Shown: in pieces, positions 1,991 through 50,479 of the stretch
How the letters are laid out: each line of letters starts with the position of its first letter
Position numbering within the stretch: position 1 is the first letter of the stretch
Assembly (NCBI GenBank): GCA_018818645.1
Contig: JAHIRQ010000067.1
Location: forward strand, 1 to 55,199
Direction: 5' to 3'
Source of the DNA: Bacillota bacterium
GTDB taxonomy: Bacteria > Bacillota_I > Bacilli_A > Acholeplasmatales > Acholeplasmataceae
Length of the DNA stretch: 55,199 nucleotides
Program-made: the position numbers and the translations under genes
Notes under the pieces: generated by a model
The model's input: only the letters and a program-made list of their open reading frames with translations
Told to the model about the DNA's origin: nothing
Databases searched by the model: none

Positions 1991-2019
1991 TTGTATATAA
2001 ATCAATAAAATGTTATATT
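1991..2019 (+). promoter_or_regulatory. Possible promoter of the first GH35 gene
   Basis: TTGTAT (1991-1996), 17 bases and an extended -10 TGTTATATT (TATATT at 2014-2019). If correct, an upstream in-frame ATG at 2010 would not be in the transcript, which supports translation from 2058. No LacI-type operator is visible here. Confidence 0.4.
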
Positions 2020-2057
2020 TATATTATAAATATAGTTTTTCAGAAAGAGGTATGTTT

Positions 2058-4454
2058 ATGTCGTTAATATCTTATAATAAGCAGCTAATACTTGACGGAA
2101 TTCCACAAACTTTGATGTTTGCTGAATTTCATTACTACCGCACACCAAAAGAACAATGGGAAGATCGAATCAAACTCATTGTTGAAGCTGGTTTCCATGG
2201 AATTGCAGCTTATATTCCTTGGTTAATCCATGAGGAATTCGAAGGTGATTTTGACTTTAATGGTAGAAAACGTGGTGAACACGATTTAATAGGATTTATA
2301 GATCTTCTTGAAAAACATAATCTCTATTTTATTCCAAGACCAGGACCTTTTATCATGGCAGAGATGAAAAATGATGGTATTCCTTATTGGGTATATCAAA
2401 AATACCCACATATTTCACCAATCACTTGGGACAACAAACCTGGAACAACAGTTACAGTAGATTATCTTGATACTGATTTTTTAAATGTCTCAAAAGCTTA
2501 TTACCAACAAATCATTCCTATACTTGTCAACAAGCTCTATCCAAAAGGTAATGTCGTTGCGTTACAATTAGATAATGAAATCGGTATGTTGTCATGGGTG
2601 AGTAACAATCCAGAGCTCAATAAACCTGTTATCAAATCTTTTATCAGTTTTTTAGAAAGAAATTATGATCAACCTTCAATTCGATATCCATTCTTAAAAT
2701 TAGATACAGATCAAATCATTGAGTATATCAGAATACCTAAAGCAGATTATATCAATCAATTGCATTTGGATTTAGGTTACTTCTTTAGAGAAAGAATTGA
2801 TATATATGTTGAATTCTTAAAAAATACAGCTATTGATTTAGGATTTAACCAAAACTTGTTTATCATCAATATCCATGGATGCAGTGCAGGACGCACCATG
2901 ATGTATCCTATTGGAATCTCACAACTTTATAAATCCTATTATGGTAAGAAAAATGTGATTTCAGGAAGTGATGTCTATATATCTGGATTTGACGTCCCAC
3001 AATTTCATGATTCCTATATGGCTAATATCTTAACTGATGCTACCAATGATGAAAACCAAGCATTGACAAGTTTAGAATTTAGTGCTGGAACAGGAGATTA
3101 TGGAAACAACTTTTCTCAACGATATAAAACGAGTCGAATTGATTTCTTAACACGCACTTTTGTAGCATTAGGAAATCGCCTTCTTAATTTCTATTCGTTT
3201 GTTGGAGGTACAAACTACCGCTTGGACTATTCACTGAGTGACGGGAATGATCGAATCGCTTCAACTGGTGAAGCACATGGATTTGCCGCTCCTATTAGTC
3301 CTGATGGAACGAAGAGTTATGTATTTGATAGAACAAAAAATGTTGTTCAATTGATGAGAAGTCATGGTCTTAGTTTGGCAAAACAAAAACCAATTTATGA
3401 CAACATCACCTATGGATTTATACCTGATTATTTTATGACAGAATTTCATTATCCAGGTCTTGAACCTAAAATACACCGTTCATTACAGCAATTTAGAACA
3501 GGTGGAGCGTGGGATGTAGTCGTTAAAACATTATTATTACTTAACTATAATATGAATGCTACGAATCTCGATATGTTTAATCCAGATCCAAATAAAATTC
3601 TTATTCTTCCTTCCGCAGAATATATGAGTCAGCAAGTTCAAAAACGTATCGTTACCTTTTTACAAAAAGGTGGAAAATTATTACTATACGGACAAGTACC
3701 AAGATTTGATCTTGAAGGTAAACCTTGTCAATTATTAGCTGATTATTTAGAACTTGAGTTCATTAGAGATTACGAACACAAAGGATACAGATTCCGTACA
3801 TCGATTGTTGCTATGAATCATGCGAAAGGTAGACCAGAACTTCATAGATCTTATTTCCAAACATGGAAATCAAAAGATGAAAAAGATGTTTTATTCAAAG
3901 TTTATCATCTTAATGAAGCGTGTGGATTCTATCTTAAAGATAAAAATTCAATCATTATAACAACAGATTATAGAAGTGACCTAGAACTCTTTGATACATT
4001 CATGAATCTACTTAAAGCTAAGAAAAATATAACTCACACAGATATCCCTTATCATGGTGTCTTTATGATTCAAACAGAAGATGAACATCAAACATCTTAT
4101 CTTCATATCATCAATATGGATGATTTTGATAAATCATTTGATGTGAATGCGAAATACATAAAAGATTTACCAATCTATATTGAAGGTAATTCTGCTTTAC
4201 TCTTAGCATTTAATCTTCCTATTAATGCCTTTACTAAAGTCATTTCTTCTACCAATGAGATCTTTAAATTCAATGAAGATTCCATTACAGTCAAATTGAA
4301 TGGACCTCGAATGAAATTAGTTCTTGAAACTACTCAAACCGTTGATATGAATGACAAAACAGTTAAAATAACAAAAGAGAACAATTTAACAATCATTGAA
4401 AAAGATTCAAGACTATATTCAGAAAGTGAACTTGTTATTCAACTCAAAAACTAA
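2058..4454 (+). CDS. GH35-family glycosidase/glucosyltransferase, cytosolic
   Basis: A 798-residue GH35 protein without signal peptide. The N-terminal TIM barrel shows the family pattern: FAEFHYYRTP, AYIPWLIHEE, RPGPFIMAEM. The acid/base is probably E174 in LDNEIG and the nucleophile probably E340 in SLEFSAG. Beta-sandwich domains follow. Canonical beta-galactosidases have an AEW-x-x-GG-x-PAWL motif; here it is AEMKNDGIPYWV, with an unusual insert GRKRGEHDL before it. Family knowledge: a GH35 member encoded in an endo-beta-1,2-glucanase cluster of Ignavibacterium is a beta-1,2-glucosyltransferase. Inference: this protein and its paralog at 31779-34133 may act on beta-1,2-glucan. Start: an in-frame ATG lies at 2010, but AAGAGG at 2045-2050 is seven bases before 2058, so I chose 2058. 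It is a single gene, separated from the locus by an IS. Confidence 0.85.
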   Translation: MSLISYNKQLILDGIPQTLMFAEFHYYRTPKEQWEDRIKLIVEAGFHGIAAYIPWLIHEEFEGDFDFNGRKRGEHDLIGFIDLLEKHNLYFIPRPGPFIMAEMKNDGIPYWVYQKYPHISPITWDNKPGTTVTVDYLDTDFLNVSKAYYQQIIPILVNKLYPKGNVVALQLDNEIGMLSWVSNNPELNKPVIKSFISFLERNYDQPSIRYPFLKLDTDQIIEYIRIPKADYINQLHLDLGYFFRERIDIYVEFLKNTAIDLGFNQNLFIINIHGCSAGRTMMYPIGISQLYKSYYGKKNVISGSDVYISGFDVPQFHDSYMANILTDATNDENQALTSLEFSAGTGDYGNNFSQRYKTSRIDFLTRTFVALGNRLLNFYSFVGGTNYRLDYSLSDGNDRIASTGEAHGFAAPISPDGTKSYVFDRTKNVVQLMRSHGLSLAKQKPIYDNITYGFIPDYFMTEFHYPGLEPKIHRSLQQFRTGGAWDVVVKTLLLLNYNMNATNLDMFNPDPNKILILPSAEYMSQQVQKRIVTFLQKGGKLLLYGQVPRFDLEGKPCQLLADYLELEFIRDYEHKGYRFRTSIVAMNHAKGRPELHRSYFQTWKSKDEKDVLFKVYHLNEACGFYLKDKNSIIITTDYRSDLELFDTFMNLLKAKKNITHTDIPYHGVFMIQTEDEHQTSYLHIINMDDFDKSFDVNAKYIKDLPIYIEGNSALLLAFNLPINAFTKVISSTNEIFKFNEDSITVKLNGPRMKLVLETTQTVDMNDKTVKITKENNLTIIEKDSRLYSESELVIQLKN

Positions 4455-4461
4455 CAAAAAG

Positions 4462-4477
4462 GGGGCTTTAACGAAAT
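4462..4477 (+). repeat. Left terminal inverted repeat of the IS
   Basis: GGGGCTTTAACGAAAT matches the inverted right end at 14 of 16 positions. Confidence 0.65.
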
Positions 4478-4500
4478 AGATTAGTTTCAGCCTTGATAAC

Positions 4501-4535
4501 AAAAAAGCCACTCTGGAAACCAGGGTGGTTTTTTG
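4501..4535. terminator. Bidirectional terminator hairpin inside the IS left end
   Basis: A long stem, AAAAAAGCCACTCTGG (4501-4516) with CCAGGGTGGTTTTTT (4520-4534), closes an AAA loop. A-tract on one side and T-tract on the other let it work both ways. It would end GH35 read-through and shield the transposase from outside transcription. The transposase -10 box TATAAT (4537-4542) begins just after the T-tract. That puts the start of transcription almost on the ATG at 4549, so the mRNA may be leaderless. Confidence 0.8.
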
Positions 4536-4548
4536 GTATAATTGAAGT

Positions 4549-6051
4549 ATGTCAAGTACTCAATTAAATCAAGTCTATTTTAACTCAAAACAATTAAAAT
4601 TACCACTATCATTTGACATAAAAATACCATTTGATAGTGAAGCACGAACATTTGACGAAGTATTTCGGAGGATTGATTTAAATAAATACATCGTAGCCGA
4701 ACCAAAAGTTGGTAGAATCGGTTATAATCCAGTCAATATGCTCAAATTGATATTGTTTTGTCAGATGGAAAACATCACAAGCCTAAGAGACATGGCTAAG
4801 GCAGCCCAACATGATATTAGAATTATGTGGCTTACAGATGAGCTAAAGCCTTCCCATCAAACGATTAGTGAGTTTATGAAGAATCGTTTGAAAGATAGCA
4901 TTGAAAAGCTATTCAATGATTTGAATCAATATATCATTGATCAAGAGAAAATCGATACGGATAAGCTCTATATCGATGGCACAAAGATTGAAGCCAACGC
5001 AAACAAATACAAGTTCATCTGAAAAGGTTCCATTGAAAAATTTAGAGATAAGCTCTACAAAAAAATAAGTAAGCATATTGAAAAACTTAACGATCAATAT
5101 CGAGAGATAGGGATCTTCTTTCCGATTTACGAACATTATGAAGTTCGTTATATTGAAAGTATTTTGAAGTTTTTAGAGCGTGAAGTAGAACAATCAGATA
5201 TTACATTTGTCTATGGAAAAGGTCAAAGGAAGACACCTCTACAAAGGGATTATGAAGAGATATCTGAATACATCATCAAGCTTAGTGAGTATGAAAAATA
5301 CATCGATATCATCGGTCCAGATAGAAACTCATGTGCGAGAACGGATCATGACGCGACATTTATGCACATGAAAGAAGACTACATGAGAAATGGTCAGTTG
5401 AAAGCAGGATACAATGTTCAGATTGGGGTTTCTGATGAATATATCCTACACCTAGATATCTTTCAGGACCGAAGTGACTATCAGACCTTCATCCCCTTCC
5501 TTAAAGGGTATCATCAAAGCGTTGGCATTTATCCGAAATATCCAGTCGCAGATGCTGGATATGGTGGTTTGAAGAACTATCGATATCTTAAGGACAATGA
5601 GATGAAACTCTATCAAAAGTATACGATGTTCAGCAAAGAGACAAATGATAAGAAGTATGCAAGTGATCCTAAACGACCTGTCAATTTTAGAAAAGATGAA
5701 ACTGGGAACTTCTACGATGAAACTGGAGAAAAACTAAACTTCTTATGGCATAGTAAGAAGGGACATGATGTCTATGAGGTACCAAGTTCAAAGCGTAGAG
5801 TGGATATCAATGAAGAACTCTGGGCACTTCAAAAAGAAGCAAGAGAAAACCTTACGTCAGAACTTGGTATTGAACTCAGAGTACAGCGTTCGATTCAAGT
5901 TGAAGGTGCATTTGGCATCATTAAAGAGCAGATGAAATTTAGAAGATTCAAACGTCGTGGTATTCAAAATGTGAAATTTGAGTTTATGCTCATCGCAATT
6001 GGCTACAATTTAGCGAAACTTCACAATAAAAAATACAGAATCATTCAATAA
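4549..6051 (+). pseudogene. IS1182-family transposase interrupted by one in-frame TGA
   Basis: A DDE transposase for cut-and-paste movement of its IS. The frame runs 500 codons from 4549 to the TAA at 6049-6051 with a single interruption: TGA at 5020-5022 (codon 158). It falls inside the conserved segment DGTKIEANANKYKFI-stop-KGS, where family members have Trp. Catalytic residues are intact: D143 in YIDGTK, D335 in VADAGYGG and E452 in VEGAFG. The N-terminal DUF772-type region and C-terminal FRRFKRRG are also present. Three other Trp codons in the frame are TGG, and neighbouring genes use TGA as a stop, so this looks like a recent TGG-to-TGA nonsense mutation. Alternatives are read-through or origin in a UGA=Trp mollicute. 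There is no clear ribosome site, and the second piece has no credible start of its own. Confidence 0.85.
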
Positions 6052-6154
6052 TTATCCATTGGAAAACTAAGGATTCTCGTAGAATCCCCTTTAAACATGT
6101 CCAAAAATAAGTGTTTTTGACAGTTTATCCACATTGGTGGAGATAAATCAAAGA

Positions 6155-6213
6155 AAAAAGGACTGCTAAGTCCATGAAGAAAATTAAATCTTCATTTCGT
6201 TACAGTCCCTTTT
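6155..6213 (-). terminator. Terminator-like hairpin after the sulfatase maturase
   Basis: On the minus strand AAAAGGGACTG (6213-6203) pairs with CAGTCCTTTTTT (6165-6155), around an inner ATGAAGA/TCTTCAT pairing. A T-tract follows. It coincides with the right end of the IS, so the element seems to supply the terminator for the 21.8-kb operon. Confidence 0.6.
6194..6209 (-). repeat. Right terminal inverted repeat of the IS
   Basis: Read from 6209 leftwards the sequence is GGGACTGTAACGAAAT, matching the left end at 14 of 16 bases. Confidence 0.65.
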
Positions 6214-6233
6214 GCTATATTGACTTCACATGT

Positions 6234-7346
6234 TTACGATTTAATTGTGTATCCACTTTCAATTTTTTTAGCAAGTTCCAAAAAACTCTGATCTGCATAA
6301 GTAAAGAAATTTTTATAGACTTCACAATGTATATCCTTATGACTAGCATCTCTTCTTCTTTTACATCCTGTTCGACATAACTTAAACCAAGGACATTGAT
6401 AACACTCATCATTTCTTATTAACGACTCATCAATAAATGATTTAGCTATTTTTGATTGATGAACATTTTCAAATGTCTGTTCGAAAATATTCCCTAGTTT
6501 ATATGGATCTGTCACATAAAAATCGCATGGATAAATACTACCATCAGATTCGATCACATTTTGAATCGAACAAACCCCTTTTAAGTCACAACTTTCTGGT
6601 TCATATCCCAAATAGATTAAAAGCATATTATCAAAATAACGAATAGAAGTAAAATTTCCATGATGAATATCATCTATCCATAAATCAAATGACTTCTTTA
6701 GGAATTTTAAGTAATGTTCGTTATCGAGAGATTTATTGCTTAAACTCCGATTAAAATCATCAATTTGAGGTATGAATTGCATATGATTAAGGTTATGATT
6801 CTTGAAAAAAGCATATGTTTCTTCTATACGATCTGCAAGATCATTATTCAAAACTGTCAATACGTTCGTTTGAACACCATGATTTAACAATTTTTCAACA
6901 TTTTTCATGATGTCTTCATGTGTTCCTTTATTAGAATGATAAGGTCGAAAACAATCGTGATGTGATTGTTCACCATCAATTGATACACCTACTAAGAAAT
7001 GATTTTCTTTCAAGAACTTGATCCATAGATCATCTAAAGTTGTCCCATTGGTCTGGATCGAGTAGGTGATGATTTGGTTTTTCTTTTTTTTATTTACGTA
7101 ATGAATGAATTCTTCAAAGTAATCTAGGCCAATCAAAGTTGGTTCACCACCTTGAAATGCAAAATGGATCATTCCTTCATCTACGAAAGATAGTGCTTGA
7201 TTGATCAATTTTTGCATCGTTTCTCTCTTCATAAAGCCATAATCTTTAATCTGCCTATGATTTGAAACATCTTCATAAAAACAATACGAGCAGTTCATAT
7301 TACATTTACTACTGCTCGGTTTAACTAATATTGAAATCTTTTTCAA
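6234..7346 (-). CDS. Anaerobic sulfatase-maturating enzyme (radical SAM, SPASM)
   Basis: Oxidises the active-site Cys (or Ser) of sulfatases to formylglycine without oxygen, using S-adenosylmethionine and three 4Fe-4S clusters. The radical SAM motif CxxxCxxC is C15-C19-C22 (CNMNCSYCF). FQGGEPTL follows near residue 65. A C-terminal SPASM region supplies the cysteines for the auxiliary clusters, including CSIQ, YPCDF, CYQCPWFKLCRTGC and HCEVY. Length 370 is typical. The start is TTG at 7346, with AAGGAG at 7354-7359 seven bases upstream; no better ATG exists. It is the last gene of operon 1, 15 bases after lacI. The only visible client, a CLPSR-type sulfatase, is 22 kb away in operon 2, which links the two operons. 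Confidence 0.93.
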   Translation of the reverse strand: MKKISILVKPSSSKCNMNCSYCFYEDVSNHRQIKDYGFMKRETMQKLINQALSFVDEGMIHFAFQGGEPTLIGLDYFEEFIHYVNKKKKNQIITYSIQTNGTTLDDLWIKFLKENHFLVGVSIDGEQSHHDCFRPYHSNKGTHEDIMKNVEKLLNHGVQTNVLTVLNNDLADRIEETYAFFKNHNLNHMQFIPQIDDFNRSLSNKSLDNEHYLKFLKKSFDLWIDDIHHGNFTSIRYFDNMLLIYLGYEPESCDLKGVCSIQNVIESDGSIYPCDFYVTDPYKLGNIFEQTFENVHQSKIAKSFIDESLIRNDECYQCPWFKLCRTGCKRRRDASHKDIHCEVYKNFFTYADQSFLELAKKIESGYTIKS

Positions 7347-17065: not shown

Positions 17066-19228
17066 TCACCCTCTCACATAGTAGTCAAGAGGATTGACTG
17101 TTACGCCTTCATCTGTCATGGTTTGATTGGTGTAATTGATAAAAATACTTACGCCATTGTCGTAGTCAACTCTTACAAAACCTATATCTAGAACTTCTCT
17201 CCATACAATTTCATGACCAATAACATCACTTAATGCATCATCAACTTTTTTGTAGGTATCCACCATATATTCATCTAAATTTCCAAAATATGTTGCGTAT
17301 AAATCTCTGCTGATCGAACCACTTAATAAATGAGATGGTCTATATGTGATAAAGAAAGCTGGATTGATTCCATACTCAATTACTTTTAACACGTCAACAT
17401 TGATGTTTGGTGAGAAATTTAAAAATTGTGAGTATACTTCTACATAACCACTGAGTAAAATTTGCTCGAATGGTACACTATCAGTAAAAAATCTTGAGCG
17501 ATTATGATAAATAAGATTCATGTAAAAACGACTTGTATTGTTTAAATTATAGAAATCCGGACGATACATTGATACACGTTCTTCAAATAAATCATTGTAG
17601 AGTGACACAACTTCTGATCTTGTCATAGACTCATTTGAATTTAATTCATTTGAGATACCATCAATTGCGATACCTCCACGATCACTTAGTGTTTGAAATG
17701 CTTCAGGGAATTCATCTTTGATATATGAAATATCTGTTAAGTATTCATAATATTCTCCACGATTTCTAGAAACACTATATTGTCTTCTCGTAATCATTTT
17801 TAAAGAAGATGATGGAGTGTTATTGGTGTAGGAAAATTCAATGGTTGGATCATAGTAGAATTCAACATTTAGGTCATCGATGTCACCGAGTCTTCCTAAC
17901 TGTCTATCTAATCTATAATTTGAGTAACTTCGATCACTATAGCCACCACGATTGTATCCTCTGATCGTATATCTGATTTGATCAACACCTTGATCAGATA
18001 AAGTATGATGAATCGATTTTAAATCATCAAAACTTGTCATGATGAAATTTTTCTTAAACAATAAACCTTTTTCGTACTCTTTCGCTAACACATCGACATG
18101 CATACTAACTTCTGTAGGTTTATATGCATTGTTTAAGACTCCGCGATTGATTAAATCCTCTTTATATGTCTGTGCGAAACCAATATAATTAGCATCATCA
18201 CCATCTAAAATCGTATAAGAAAGTTCTGGATTATAGTCTTTTATTTCGCTTTCATAGATGGTTATATTCTCATTGGTTGATAAAGGTTGAACATGATTTT
18301 CTCTCATCAAAAAGAGTGCATTTTGACTATGGAAGTTGGTCTGATAAGTTGGTGGAGTATAAATATATTCTGCATACTCAGCACCATCTTTTACTTCAAC
18401 AAATAAAGCATTTTGGTTTACACCGTGTACAATTCCGAAGACAGGATAGTTTAATAAAGTATCACCACTTGTATTGGATCTATATTTATCTTGGCCATAG
18501 AATCTTGCACGATAGACATTGGATATCGCCGAAGATGAATTGAATCGAATTAAAGCTCCATTCCCAGATGGTAAAAAGAAATATCCAGGAATATCATCAG
18601 CATATGCAGTACCAAAGAACTCATAAATAGATAATTTGAGTAAACGATTTGGTCCATACTCTTCGATAGTATCTCTAAGCACTTTAACATCGAAACCTTT
18701 TTCTGTTAAAGTGACTGTATAATCCAGTTTGATTTGCTCGACTTCGAAATCAACATGGAATGTGACAACATCTCCATTGACTTCAAAACTAGTTGTCGCG
18801 TTTTCAGCAGATCTTCTTTGTAACATGGATGAGGTTACCGTAATATTAGACTCATTTAAAAAGTCAATAGTGATTGCAGAATTGATACGTCTTATCCACG
18901 CTCCTGTTAATTCATAATCGCTTAAATTAACGACATCACTTGACCAATAATACCCAGTTTCTTTATTCAAGATTCGAATAGCTAGACCGTTTGGATTCAC
19001 ATACAAAATAAATGTATTATTTTCGACAAGTTCAGTAAAATTGGTCATATCTGCTGCTGGTTGATTATATACTTCTAAATCTTCAACTCTTGTAAAAAGG
19101 TTAGAGTCAATGAGTGTAGTTGATACGCTGATGGGGATTTCAAATGGATCATCTTCTTCAGCTGCATAAGTTTCAAAGATGAAGAACATGCATAATATCA
19201 ATATAATCAAAAGGTTTAGTTTTTTCAT
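17066..19228 (-). CDS. DUF5696-like exported protein of a polysaccharide uptake module
   Basis: A 720-residue exported protein. The signal peptide is MKKLNLLIILILCMFFIFETYA, with likely cleavage after YA and no proper lipobox. An N-terminal beta-rich half (about 60-330) contains GLAIRILNKETGYYWSS and a PGYFFLPSGNGALIRF segment. The C-terminal half looks like an alpha/beta barrel (about 370-650), with DQIRYTIRGYNRGG and DRGGIAIDG. It resembles the uncharacterised DUF5696 proteins found beside ABC sugar transporters and Yip1 proteins in Paenibacillus-like bacteria. Whether it is a glycosidase, a binding protein or a scaffold is not known. Its start overlaps the stop of the NHL-Yip1 gene as ATGA, so the two are translationally coupled. 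Confidence 0.72.
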   Translation of the reverse strand: MKKLNLLIILILCMFFIFETYAAEEDDPFEIPISVSTTLIDSNLFTRVEDLEVYNQPAADMTNFTELVENNTFILYVNPNGLAIRILNKETGYYWSSDVVNLSDYELTGAWIRRINSAITIDFLNESNITVTSSMLQRRSAENATTSFEVNGDVVTFHVDFEVEQIKLDYTVTLTEKGFDVKVLRDTIEEYGPNRLLKLSIYEFFGTAYADDIPGYFFLPSGNGALIRFNSSSAISNVYRARFYGQDKYRSNTSGDTLLNYPVFGIVHGVNQNALFVEVKDGAEYAEYIYTPPTYQTNFHSQNALFLMRENHVQPLSTNENITIYESEIKDYNPELSYTILDGDDANYIGFAQTYKEDLINRGVLNNAYKPTEVSMHVDVLAKEYEKGLLFKKNFIMTSFDDLKSIHHTLSDQGVDQIRYTIRGYNRGGYSDRSYSNYRLDRQLGRLGDIDDLNVEFYYDPTIEFSYTNNTPSSSLKMITRRQYSVSRNRGEYYEYLTDISYIKDEFPEAFQTLSDRGGIAIDGISNELNSNESMTRSEVVSLYNDLFEERVSMYRPDFYNLNNTSRFYMNLIYHNRSRFFTDSVPFEQILLSGYVEVYSQFLNFSPNINVDVLKVIEYGINPAFFITYRPSHLLSGSISRDLYATYFGNLDEYMVDTYKKVDDALSDVIGHEIVWREVLDIGFVRVDYDNGVSIFINYTNQTMTDEGVTVNPLDYYVRG

Positions 19229-43961: not shown

Positions 43962-45275
43962 ATGCACAAATATCTTCCACATACAAGTCAAGATATTGAA
44001 GAAATGTTAAAGGTCACAGGGGCAAATTCCCTTGATGACCTATTTACTTCTATACCTAAAAAACTGAGACTTACAAAACCATATCAAATTCCAAGTGCTT
44101 TATCTGATCATGACTTAACAAAACATATGCAAAATCTGGCAAAACAAAATAAAGAACTGATCGTGTTTCGTGGTGCTGGTGCTTATGACCACTACTCACC
44201 ATCAATTGTTAAAGCATTGATTTCTAGACAAGAATTCTTAACATCTTATACACCTTATCAACCTGAGGTTGCTCAAGGTACACTGCAATACATTTTTGAA
44301 TATCAATCCATGGTTTGTGAACTTACAGGAATGGAAGTTTCTAATGCATCAATGTATGATGGAGCAACCGCTACAGCTGAAGCGATGTTTATGGCGTTTG
44401 CACAAACAGGAATGAGTAAAGTCTTAATTTCTTCTACTGTCAATCCTAGAATCATCGATGTCGTCAAGACTTATGCAAGATATCGTGATATTGAAGTGAT
44501 TGTAACACCAAGTCAAGATGGAGTAACCGATTTAAATTTCATCCAAAAAAATATGGAAAACGCGATGGGTCTCATCGTTCAAAATCCAAATTATTTTGGA
44601 ATCATTGAAGACTATAATGGATTTTCTGAAGTCGTTCACGAAAATGACGGTCTTTTCATTATGAACTCTGAAGGACAACCTTTAAGTTTAATTAAAACTC
44701 CTGGTGAATATGATGCAGATATCGCTGTTGGTGATCTACAATCATTTGGTCTTCCACTATCCTTTGGTGGAGCATATGTAGGTTATTTAGCGACAAAGAT
44801 GAAATATGTTAGAAAAATGCCAGGTCGTATTTGTGGGATCACTACAGATGTTGATGGCAAACGTGCATTTGTTTTAACACTTCAAGCAAGAGAACAACAT
44901 ATTAGACGTGCTAAAGCAAACTCTAATATTTGTTCAAACCAATCCTTAATGGCATTAGCTGTTACGATTTATCTATCGACGATGGGTAAAGAAGGTACAG
45001 TGATGGTAGCGAATGAATCCATGAAAGGTGCACACTATTTATATCAAGAATTATTAAAGACTAACAAATTTGAAGTCGTATACAATAAACCTTTCTTCAA
45101 AGAATTCGTATTGAAAGCGAAATTTGATGTTGATAAATTCGAAAAAGACTTACTTAAAGATGGCATTTTAGGTCCTCTTCATATCAAAGATAACCATTTA
45201 TTATTTGCAGTTACAGAAAAGAGATCGATTGAAGAAATTGACTTACTGGTAAGAAAGGTGGTAGAACAAAAATGA
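43962..45275 (+). CDS. gcvPA: Glycine dehydrogenase (decarboxylating) subunit 1
   Basis: A 437-residue alpha subunit of the two-chain P protein, which decarboxylates glycine. It starts HKYLPHTSQDIEEML, as usual, and has FRGAGAYDHYSPSIV, TPYQPEVAQGTLQ, NPNYFGIIED, GDLQSFGLPLSFGGAYVGY and ALQAREQHIRRAKANSNICSN. It does not carry the PLP lysine, which is in gcvPB. Its TGA stop overlaps the gcvPB ATG as ATGA, implying equal, coupled synthesis. That overlap also shows that UGA is a stop in this genome. Confidence 0.97.
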   Translation: MHKYLPHTSQDIEEMLKVTGANSLDDLFTSIPKKLRLTKPYQIPSALSDHDLTKHMQNLAKQNKELIVFRGAGAYDHYSPSIVKALISRQEFLTSYTPYQPEVAQGTLQYIFEYQSMVCELTGMEVSNASMYDGATATAEAMFMAFAQTGMSKVLISSTVNPRIIDVVKTYARYRDIEVIVTPSQDGVTDLNFIQKNMENAMGLIVQNPNYFGIIEDYNGFSEVVHENDGLFIMNSEGQPLSLIKTPGEYDADIAVGDLQSFGLPLSFGGAYVGYLATKMKYVRKMPGRICGITTDVDGKRAFVLTLQAREQHIRRAKANSNICSNQSLMALAVTIYLSTMGKEGTVMVANESMKGAHYLYQELLKTNKFEVVYNKPFFKEFVLKAKFDVDKFEKDLLKDGILGPLHIKDNHLLFAVTEKRSIEEIDLLVRKVVEQK

Positions 45276-49759: not shown

Positions 49760-50479
49760 TTGATTCCTGATATTCCAAAATACATGATTGTTGTTGATGA
49801 AATCGAAAAAATCATTAAAACTCAAGAAGTCAATACATTAATACCTTCAGAGAGAAATCTCTCTTTATCTCTTGATATATCTAGAATGACAGTAAGAAAA
49901 GCTATTGATATATTGGTCAATCAAGGAAAGCTCTACAGAGTGAATAACGTAGGGACTTTTATTTCTGAACAAAAACTATATAAAGTGTTTAATACTTTAA
50001 CAGGATTTACTGATGAAGTCTTATCTACTGGTGGTACTGTTCAAAATGAAGTTCTTTTATTTGAAAAGTTAAGAGCTGATGAATGGATTTCTAATAAACT
50101 AGGTATTGAAGAAAATGACTTAGTCTATAAGTTGATTCGGCTTAGAAAGAAAGACTCAATACCTTTAATGATTCAAGAGACTTATTTACCAGTTTCATTA
50201 ATACCATTAACTAAAAAAATCGTTCAGAACTCGATTTATCATTATATAACCCATAAACTGAACTATCAAATCATCTCATCTATCGAAGAAATTAAAGCGA
50301 TACTCATTCATAAAGATTACGCAACACTTCTTGAAATGAAAGAAAATGAACCGACAATAAAGACAGAACAAATTAGTTATTTAGCAAACGGAAAAATATT
50401 TGAATATACAATCAGTTATAAGAACCAAAACAAATATGAGCTTGTTGTACAAGCAATGAATGTGAGGAAATCATTATGA
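49760..50479 (+). CDS. GntR-family (HutC subfamily) regulator
   Basis: A 239-residue regulator with an N-terminal winged helix (about 5-70; PSERNLSLSLDISRMTVRKAIDILVNQG) and a C-terminal UTRA effector domain (about 90-235; IRLRKKDSIPLMIQETYLP). UTRA domains bind sugar phosphates, amino acids or similar small molecules. The start is TTG at 49760, seven bases after AGAGG. Its TGA stop overlaps ptsI as ATGA. Control of the general PTS proteins by a co-transcribed GntR regulator is uncommon. The effector may be a PTS-derived sugar phosphate such as glucosamine-6-phosphate or trehalose-6-phosphate (guess by family). Confidence 0.93.
   Translation: MIPDIPKYMIVVDEIEKIIKTQEVNTLIPSERNLSLSLDISRMTVRKAIDILVNQGKLYRVNNVGTFISEQKLYKVFNTLTGFTDEVLSTGGTVQNEVLLFEKLRADEWISNKLGIEENDLVYKLIRLRKKDSIPLMIQETYLPVSLIPLTKKIVQNSIYHYITHKLNYQIISSIEEIKAILIHKDYATLLEMKENEPTIKTEQISYLANGKIFEYTISYKNQNKYELVVQAMNVRKSL

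Follow-up and report, generated by a model that had tools for sequence, protein, structure and literature searches.

How should a single TGA in an otherwise intact transposase gene be read: as a lesion, a brake on expression, a codon from a different genetic code, or an error in the data? The question arises at positions 4549-6051 (+) of the window, the whole stretch of 55,199 nucleotides analysed here (contig JAHIRQ010000067.1, Bacillota bacterium). The frame there runs for 500 codons to a TAA and, on translation, is interrupted once, by a TGA at codon 158 (5020-5022, +), with KYKFI before it and KGS after it. An earlier note, made from the letters alone, called this an IS1182 transposase with TGA at a Trp position and offered three options: a very recent nonsense mutation, stop read-through giving low transposase levels, or arrival from a mollicute in which UGA is Trp. 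Its coordinates and description hold, and the first option is much the best: very probably this is an ordinary IS1182-family insertion sequence (IS) in which a recent single nonsense mutation has struck the Trp158 codon and decay is beginning. It is a known kind of IS, recently inactivated, and no special decoding is suggested.

Judged by its 500 codons and its IS1182 homology, the frame is evidently not a chance ORF. Read through the stop, the protein scores 276.4 bits against the NCBIfam model for the family (NF033551 IS1182, cut-off 270); the separate halves score 105.6 and 153.4 bits, below the cut-off, and align with the N-terminal and the C-terminal portion of the profile respectively. 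In an alignment of 10 rows, with the TGA of the window row read as W, D143, D335 and E452, which we take to be the DDE catalytic acids, are invariant, as is W158. The window copy keeps all other invariant residues as well and has a single coding lesion. The earlier note was right that the DDE residues are kept and that the remaining Trp codons (94, 400 and 425) are TGG; codon 158 is the sole in-frame TGA.

Translation from the ATG at 4549 would end at codon 158 with recognition of UGA by RF2, leaving a predicted product of 157 aa (4549-5022, +) with the DUF772 region and the first catalytic Asp, D143, only. The C-terminal part (5023-6051, +), with the DDE_Tnp_1 / DDE_Tnp_1_6 matches, D335 and E452, would stay untranslated unless there were read-through or re-initiation, and re-initiation after the stop could give a C-terminal piece only. 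As the stop parts D143 from the other two acids, a 157-aa fragment with one of the three should be catalytically dead.

In this host TGA is a stop. The genome retains RF2 (TIGR00020, 518.2 bits against a cut-off of 370); among its 33 tRNA matches the only tRNA-Trp anticodon found by ARAGORN on the tRNA loci is CCA, and UCA is absent; no genome match to tRNA-Sec (RF01852) exceeds the cut-off, the sub-threshold hits overlapping ordinary tRNAs. The assignment of TGA follows from these observations. Within the window TGA ends five of 35 long ORFs, three of them at ATGA overlaps (19225-19228, 45272-45275 and 50476-50479), the kind of evidence that the earlier note had invoked. Thus the genome shows neither of the two signs of the UGA=Trp code (table 4), a missing RF2 and a tRNA-Trp(UCA), and the result speaks plainly against code reassignment in this Acholeplasmataceae-type genome. 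Selenocysteine insertion at codon 158 was considered too, and rejected on the lack of a tRNA-Sec match over the cut-off.

The idea that the element came from a mollicute with UGA as a Trp codon draws some credit from the company the host keeps: it groups with Acholeplasmataceae MAGs, relatives of the mollicutes with that code (PMC4014445, in the portion available). According to the same excerpt, the mollicutes studied lack RF2, with the exception of three phytoplasmas and Acholeplasma laidlawii, and mollicutes without RF2 read UGA as Trp, a rule that agrees with the stop function of UGA in this host. The element does not bear out such a journey. Its nearest copies reside in the same genus, at 82-89% identity, and have TGG at the site or no internal stop; its own three other Trp codons are TGG; and among the copies examined at codon 158, none carries several in-phase TGA codons at Trp sites. 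With RF2, tRNA-Trp(CCA) only, TGG use and intact same-genus copies all against it, an origin under the UGA=Trp code is rejected as having practically no probability.

Relatives leave little doubt about the residue that has been lost. Trp stands at codon 158 in 23/23 distinct non-window loci covering the site (the count leaves out the window row, L002, and the double fetches L003, identical with L012, and L004, identical with L013), as the earlier note had said of relatives in general; a stop stands there in none. In the codon alignment the codon is TGG in all five near relatives that cover it. Within the genus, nine of 20 genomes have transposase matches, the window's own genome among the nine. 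Two of these matches are intact full-length copies, G016 (JAUVXD010000002) at 85% identity and G003 (DIER01000020) at 82%; several of the rest are fragments that break off where a contig ends, as IS in MAGs commonly do. Across the family, 20 of 88 genomes have a match. Near-full-length copies (at least 490 of the 500 query residues) number 25 in the 88 genomes: 23 are free of internal stops and two have one in-frame stop each, namely the window copy (TGA) and a copy from Tenericutes bacterium MO-XQ (TAA, at another codon). Shorter degraded copies with several stops occur in G028 and G087. Named genome contigs hold 27 loci, the nearest from an Acholeplasmataceae bacterium; relatives occur in 1558 plasmid records, only one of which, an MO-XQ plasmid, lies at 60-80% identity; and none was confirmed on viral contigs.

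Two groups of copies met along the way deserve a remark of their own. The MO-XQ copy with the TAA (L018, CP017948) is otherwise intact in frame, and its stop aligns with about codon 312 of the window copy. In G087, a single-contig genome, 5/5 copies examined (L093-L097) break frame near codons 72-80 through differing small indels, and four of the five break frame again near codons 285-335; these breaks are either long-read indel errors, or decay, or a recoding site like that reported for DUF772 transposases.

Another perspective supposes that the stop is regulated or tolerated: the near-cognate tRNA-Trp(CCA) would at times read UGA as Trp, yielding a little wild-type protein and rare transposition. 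The leaky UGA at Trp158 would then be a translational throttle, allowing the one copy in the genome to survive with very little activity. The stop does fall exactly at a Trp codon, where misreading would put the native residue back, and constraint on the remainder of the frame matches that in intact copies; an element living by low-level read-through would show the same otherwise intact frame. Recoding in this family is also in print: the part of PMC3711429 at hand reports programmed frameshifting, reaching 24%, in a DUF772 cluster whose members carry the annotation of IS1182-family transposases. Those genes resemble the window frame in family and in having an interrupted zero-frame product. 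They differ in that the interruption there is a frameshift, whereas the window frame continues in phase after one TGA; going by that excerpt, the precedent is of another type than stop read-through. Programmed read-through should leave a stop conserved among copies and a stimulatory context. The stop at codon 158 is shared by none of the 23 relatives, the RNA 3' of it has no unusual structure (fold z 0.32) that might serve as a stimulator, and the left terminal repeat is altered (below). Moreover, the intact majority of near-full-length copies needs no such stop. Read-through as a means of keeping transposase low is very improbable, and the throttle equally so, though some background leakiness of the UGA may occur.

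A recent nonsense mutation, the preferred reading, fits the rates of change. Between the window copy and G016, dN is 0.100 and dS 1.15 (dN/dS about 0.09); between it and G003, dN is 0.106 and dS 1.46 (about 0.07), the pairwise dS values being near saturation. The intact pair G016/G003 gives similar figures, dN 0.115 and dS 1.13. Comparison of these three copies reveals no consistent excess after the stop over the part before it. By the three-point method the window branch has a dN of 0.045, while the two intact branches have 0.055 and 0.061 (bootstrap 95% interval of the difference, -0.030 to +0.006). Replacements at positions where all other rows agree number six in the window copy, and seven and six in the two intact copies. 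A phase of relaxed selection is thus not detectable in the three-point branch lengths. Because the window branch is no longer in dN than those of its intact relatives, the stop appears to be recent relative to the split from the nearest copies compared. This lack of excess amino-acid divergence, with the unanimous Trp of the relatives, supports the option of a very recent nonsense mutation.

The main rival to a recent nonsense mutation supposes that nothing happened to the element at all: the TGA would have entered by mistake during assembly or consensus calling of a metagenome-assembled contig, or would represent a minority variant, and the element would be intact. The genome is in 194 contigs with 98.3% completeness and is taken for a MAG; moreover, the frame has no other flaw, and its evolution resembles that of the intact copies. 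Single-base errors are, on the other hand, rare in short-read MAG consensus sequences. In addition, the window copy has a second family-unique change, in its left repeat, which would have to be another error or else be real. An error is accordingly unlikely, if less so than the other alternatives, and mutation is the probable source of the TGA.

The left repeat comes to light when the element is viewed as a whole. Bounded by its two terminal inverted repeats, the IS spans 4462-6209 (+) and is about 1.75 kb long; its ends agree with those of relatives. The inverted-repeat matches at 4462-4478 (+) and 6193-6209 (-) are the only two in the genome and are of the kind expected for the IS1182 family; the pair 4458-4477/6194-6213 is 85% complementary. 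The right repeat keeps the family sequence (ATTTCGTTACAG). The left repeat, CTTTAACGAAAT, reads CTTTAA with T as its third base, against C[T/C]GTAA in relatives: G stands there in 27/27 distinct left ends. Of 37 listed ends, the window row (L111) and nine double fetches were set aside to reach this count; the scan behind it took matches at 55% identity or more that start within the first 12 residues. Its search pattern fixed the neighbouring letters but left the tested base free to be G or T, and no listed end failed it. The change suggests ordinary decay, and may also be harmless.

Further copies of the IS, or of its terminal repeats, were looked for in the same genome and none was found, a result to be read with the frequent loss of multi-copy IS from MAG assemblies in mind, so that single copy is not certain. 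Because the left repeat is changed and no second genomic copy was found that could act in trans as a source of transposase, the window copy is probably immobile.

Upstream of the gene lie a terminator-like hairpin (4502-4534, +; 15-bp stem with a 3' T-run, -20.6 kcal/mol, equalled by 0/200 shuffles) and a promoter-like site, TGGAAA-17-TATAAT with TG before the second hexamer (4514-4542, +), in a layout like that of relatives. The ATG begins six bases after TATAAT in the window copy, and the same TATAAT-6-ATG recurs in relatives; six relatives' left ends, folded singly, form a like hairpin. Intact relatives have the order left repeat, terminator-like hairpin, promoter-like site, transposase, right repeat. 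The hairpin perhaps shields the transposase gene from incoming transcription, and the transposase mRNA may be leaderless, from the ATG six bases past the second hexamer. The IS1182-family elements of Acholeplasmataceae with the same transposase (G016, G003 and MO-XQ, at 85, 82 and about 68% identity) thus share with the window copy the terminal repeats and the upstream hairpin with TATAAT-6-ATG; the window copy differs from them by the TGA at codon 158 and the altered left repeat. A separate observation concerns the strong hairpin before TATAAT-6-ATG (window 4502-4551), common to L003, L004, L014-L019, L073, L077-L079 and L093-L097: in these family copies the transposase promoter lies partly inside the terminator, an overlap that could stop read-in transcription yet permit the element's own.

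The insertion site completes the picture of an ordinary IS. On its left the element is flanked by a GH35/42-like glycosidase gene (2010-4454), and on its right by a radical SAM/SPASM gene (6234-7346) that is convergent with the first. In the sister genomes G002, G003 and G005 the same two genes are about 30 bases apart, with a terminator-like hairpin (AAAAGGAG...CTCCTTTT) between them. As G003 and G005 do not differ in this region, the hairpin is represented by two independent sequences. In the window (4455-6233) the IS stands in the hairpin's place, preceded by AAAAAG and followed by TTTT. Comparison with the sisters suggests that the hairpin was replaced in the window's own lineage, much as a terminator is replaced by IS1272. 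Insertion of the staphylococcal IS1272, placed in the IS1182 family by the papers concerned, is described in excerpts of PMC5678879 and PMC4923244 as hairpin-replacing and without target duplication; the former excerpt also reports IS1272 transposases with premature stops or frameshifts. The likeness to the window IS, in target and in truncated copies, is one of description, not of sequence: the IS1272 transposase is mostly 548 aa according to the paper excerpted, against 500 codons here. The site adds a case, from outside the staphylococci, of an IS1182 element standing where a terminator hairpin would otherwise be. The stop itself matters little beyond annotation: IS copies are many, and this one has been caught shortly after it was inactivated.

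The radical SAM/SPASM gene beside the element belongs to a large carbohydrate-use cluster (6234-37904, -) in this Acholeplasmataceae-type genome. Its protein is perhaps a sulfatase-maturating enzyme; the cluster also holds a LacI regulator, an SOGP-type phosphorylase, GH3 and glucoamylase-like proteins, ABC transporters and a sulfatase, as well as GH35/42 and alpha-amylase family members and GFO/IDH/MocA oxidoreductases.
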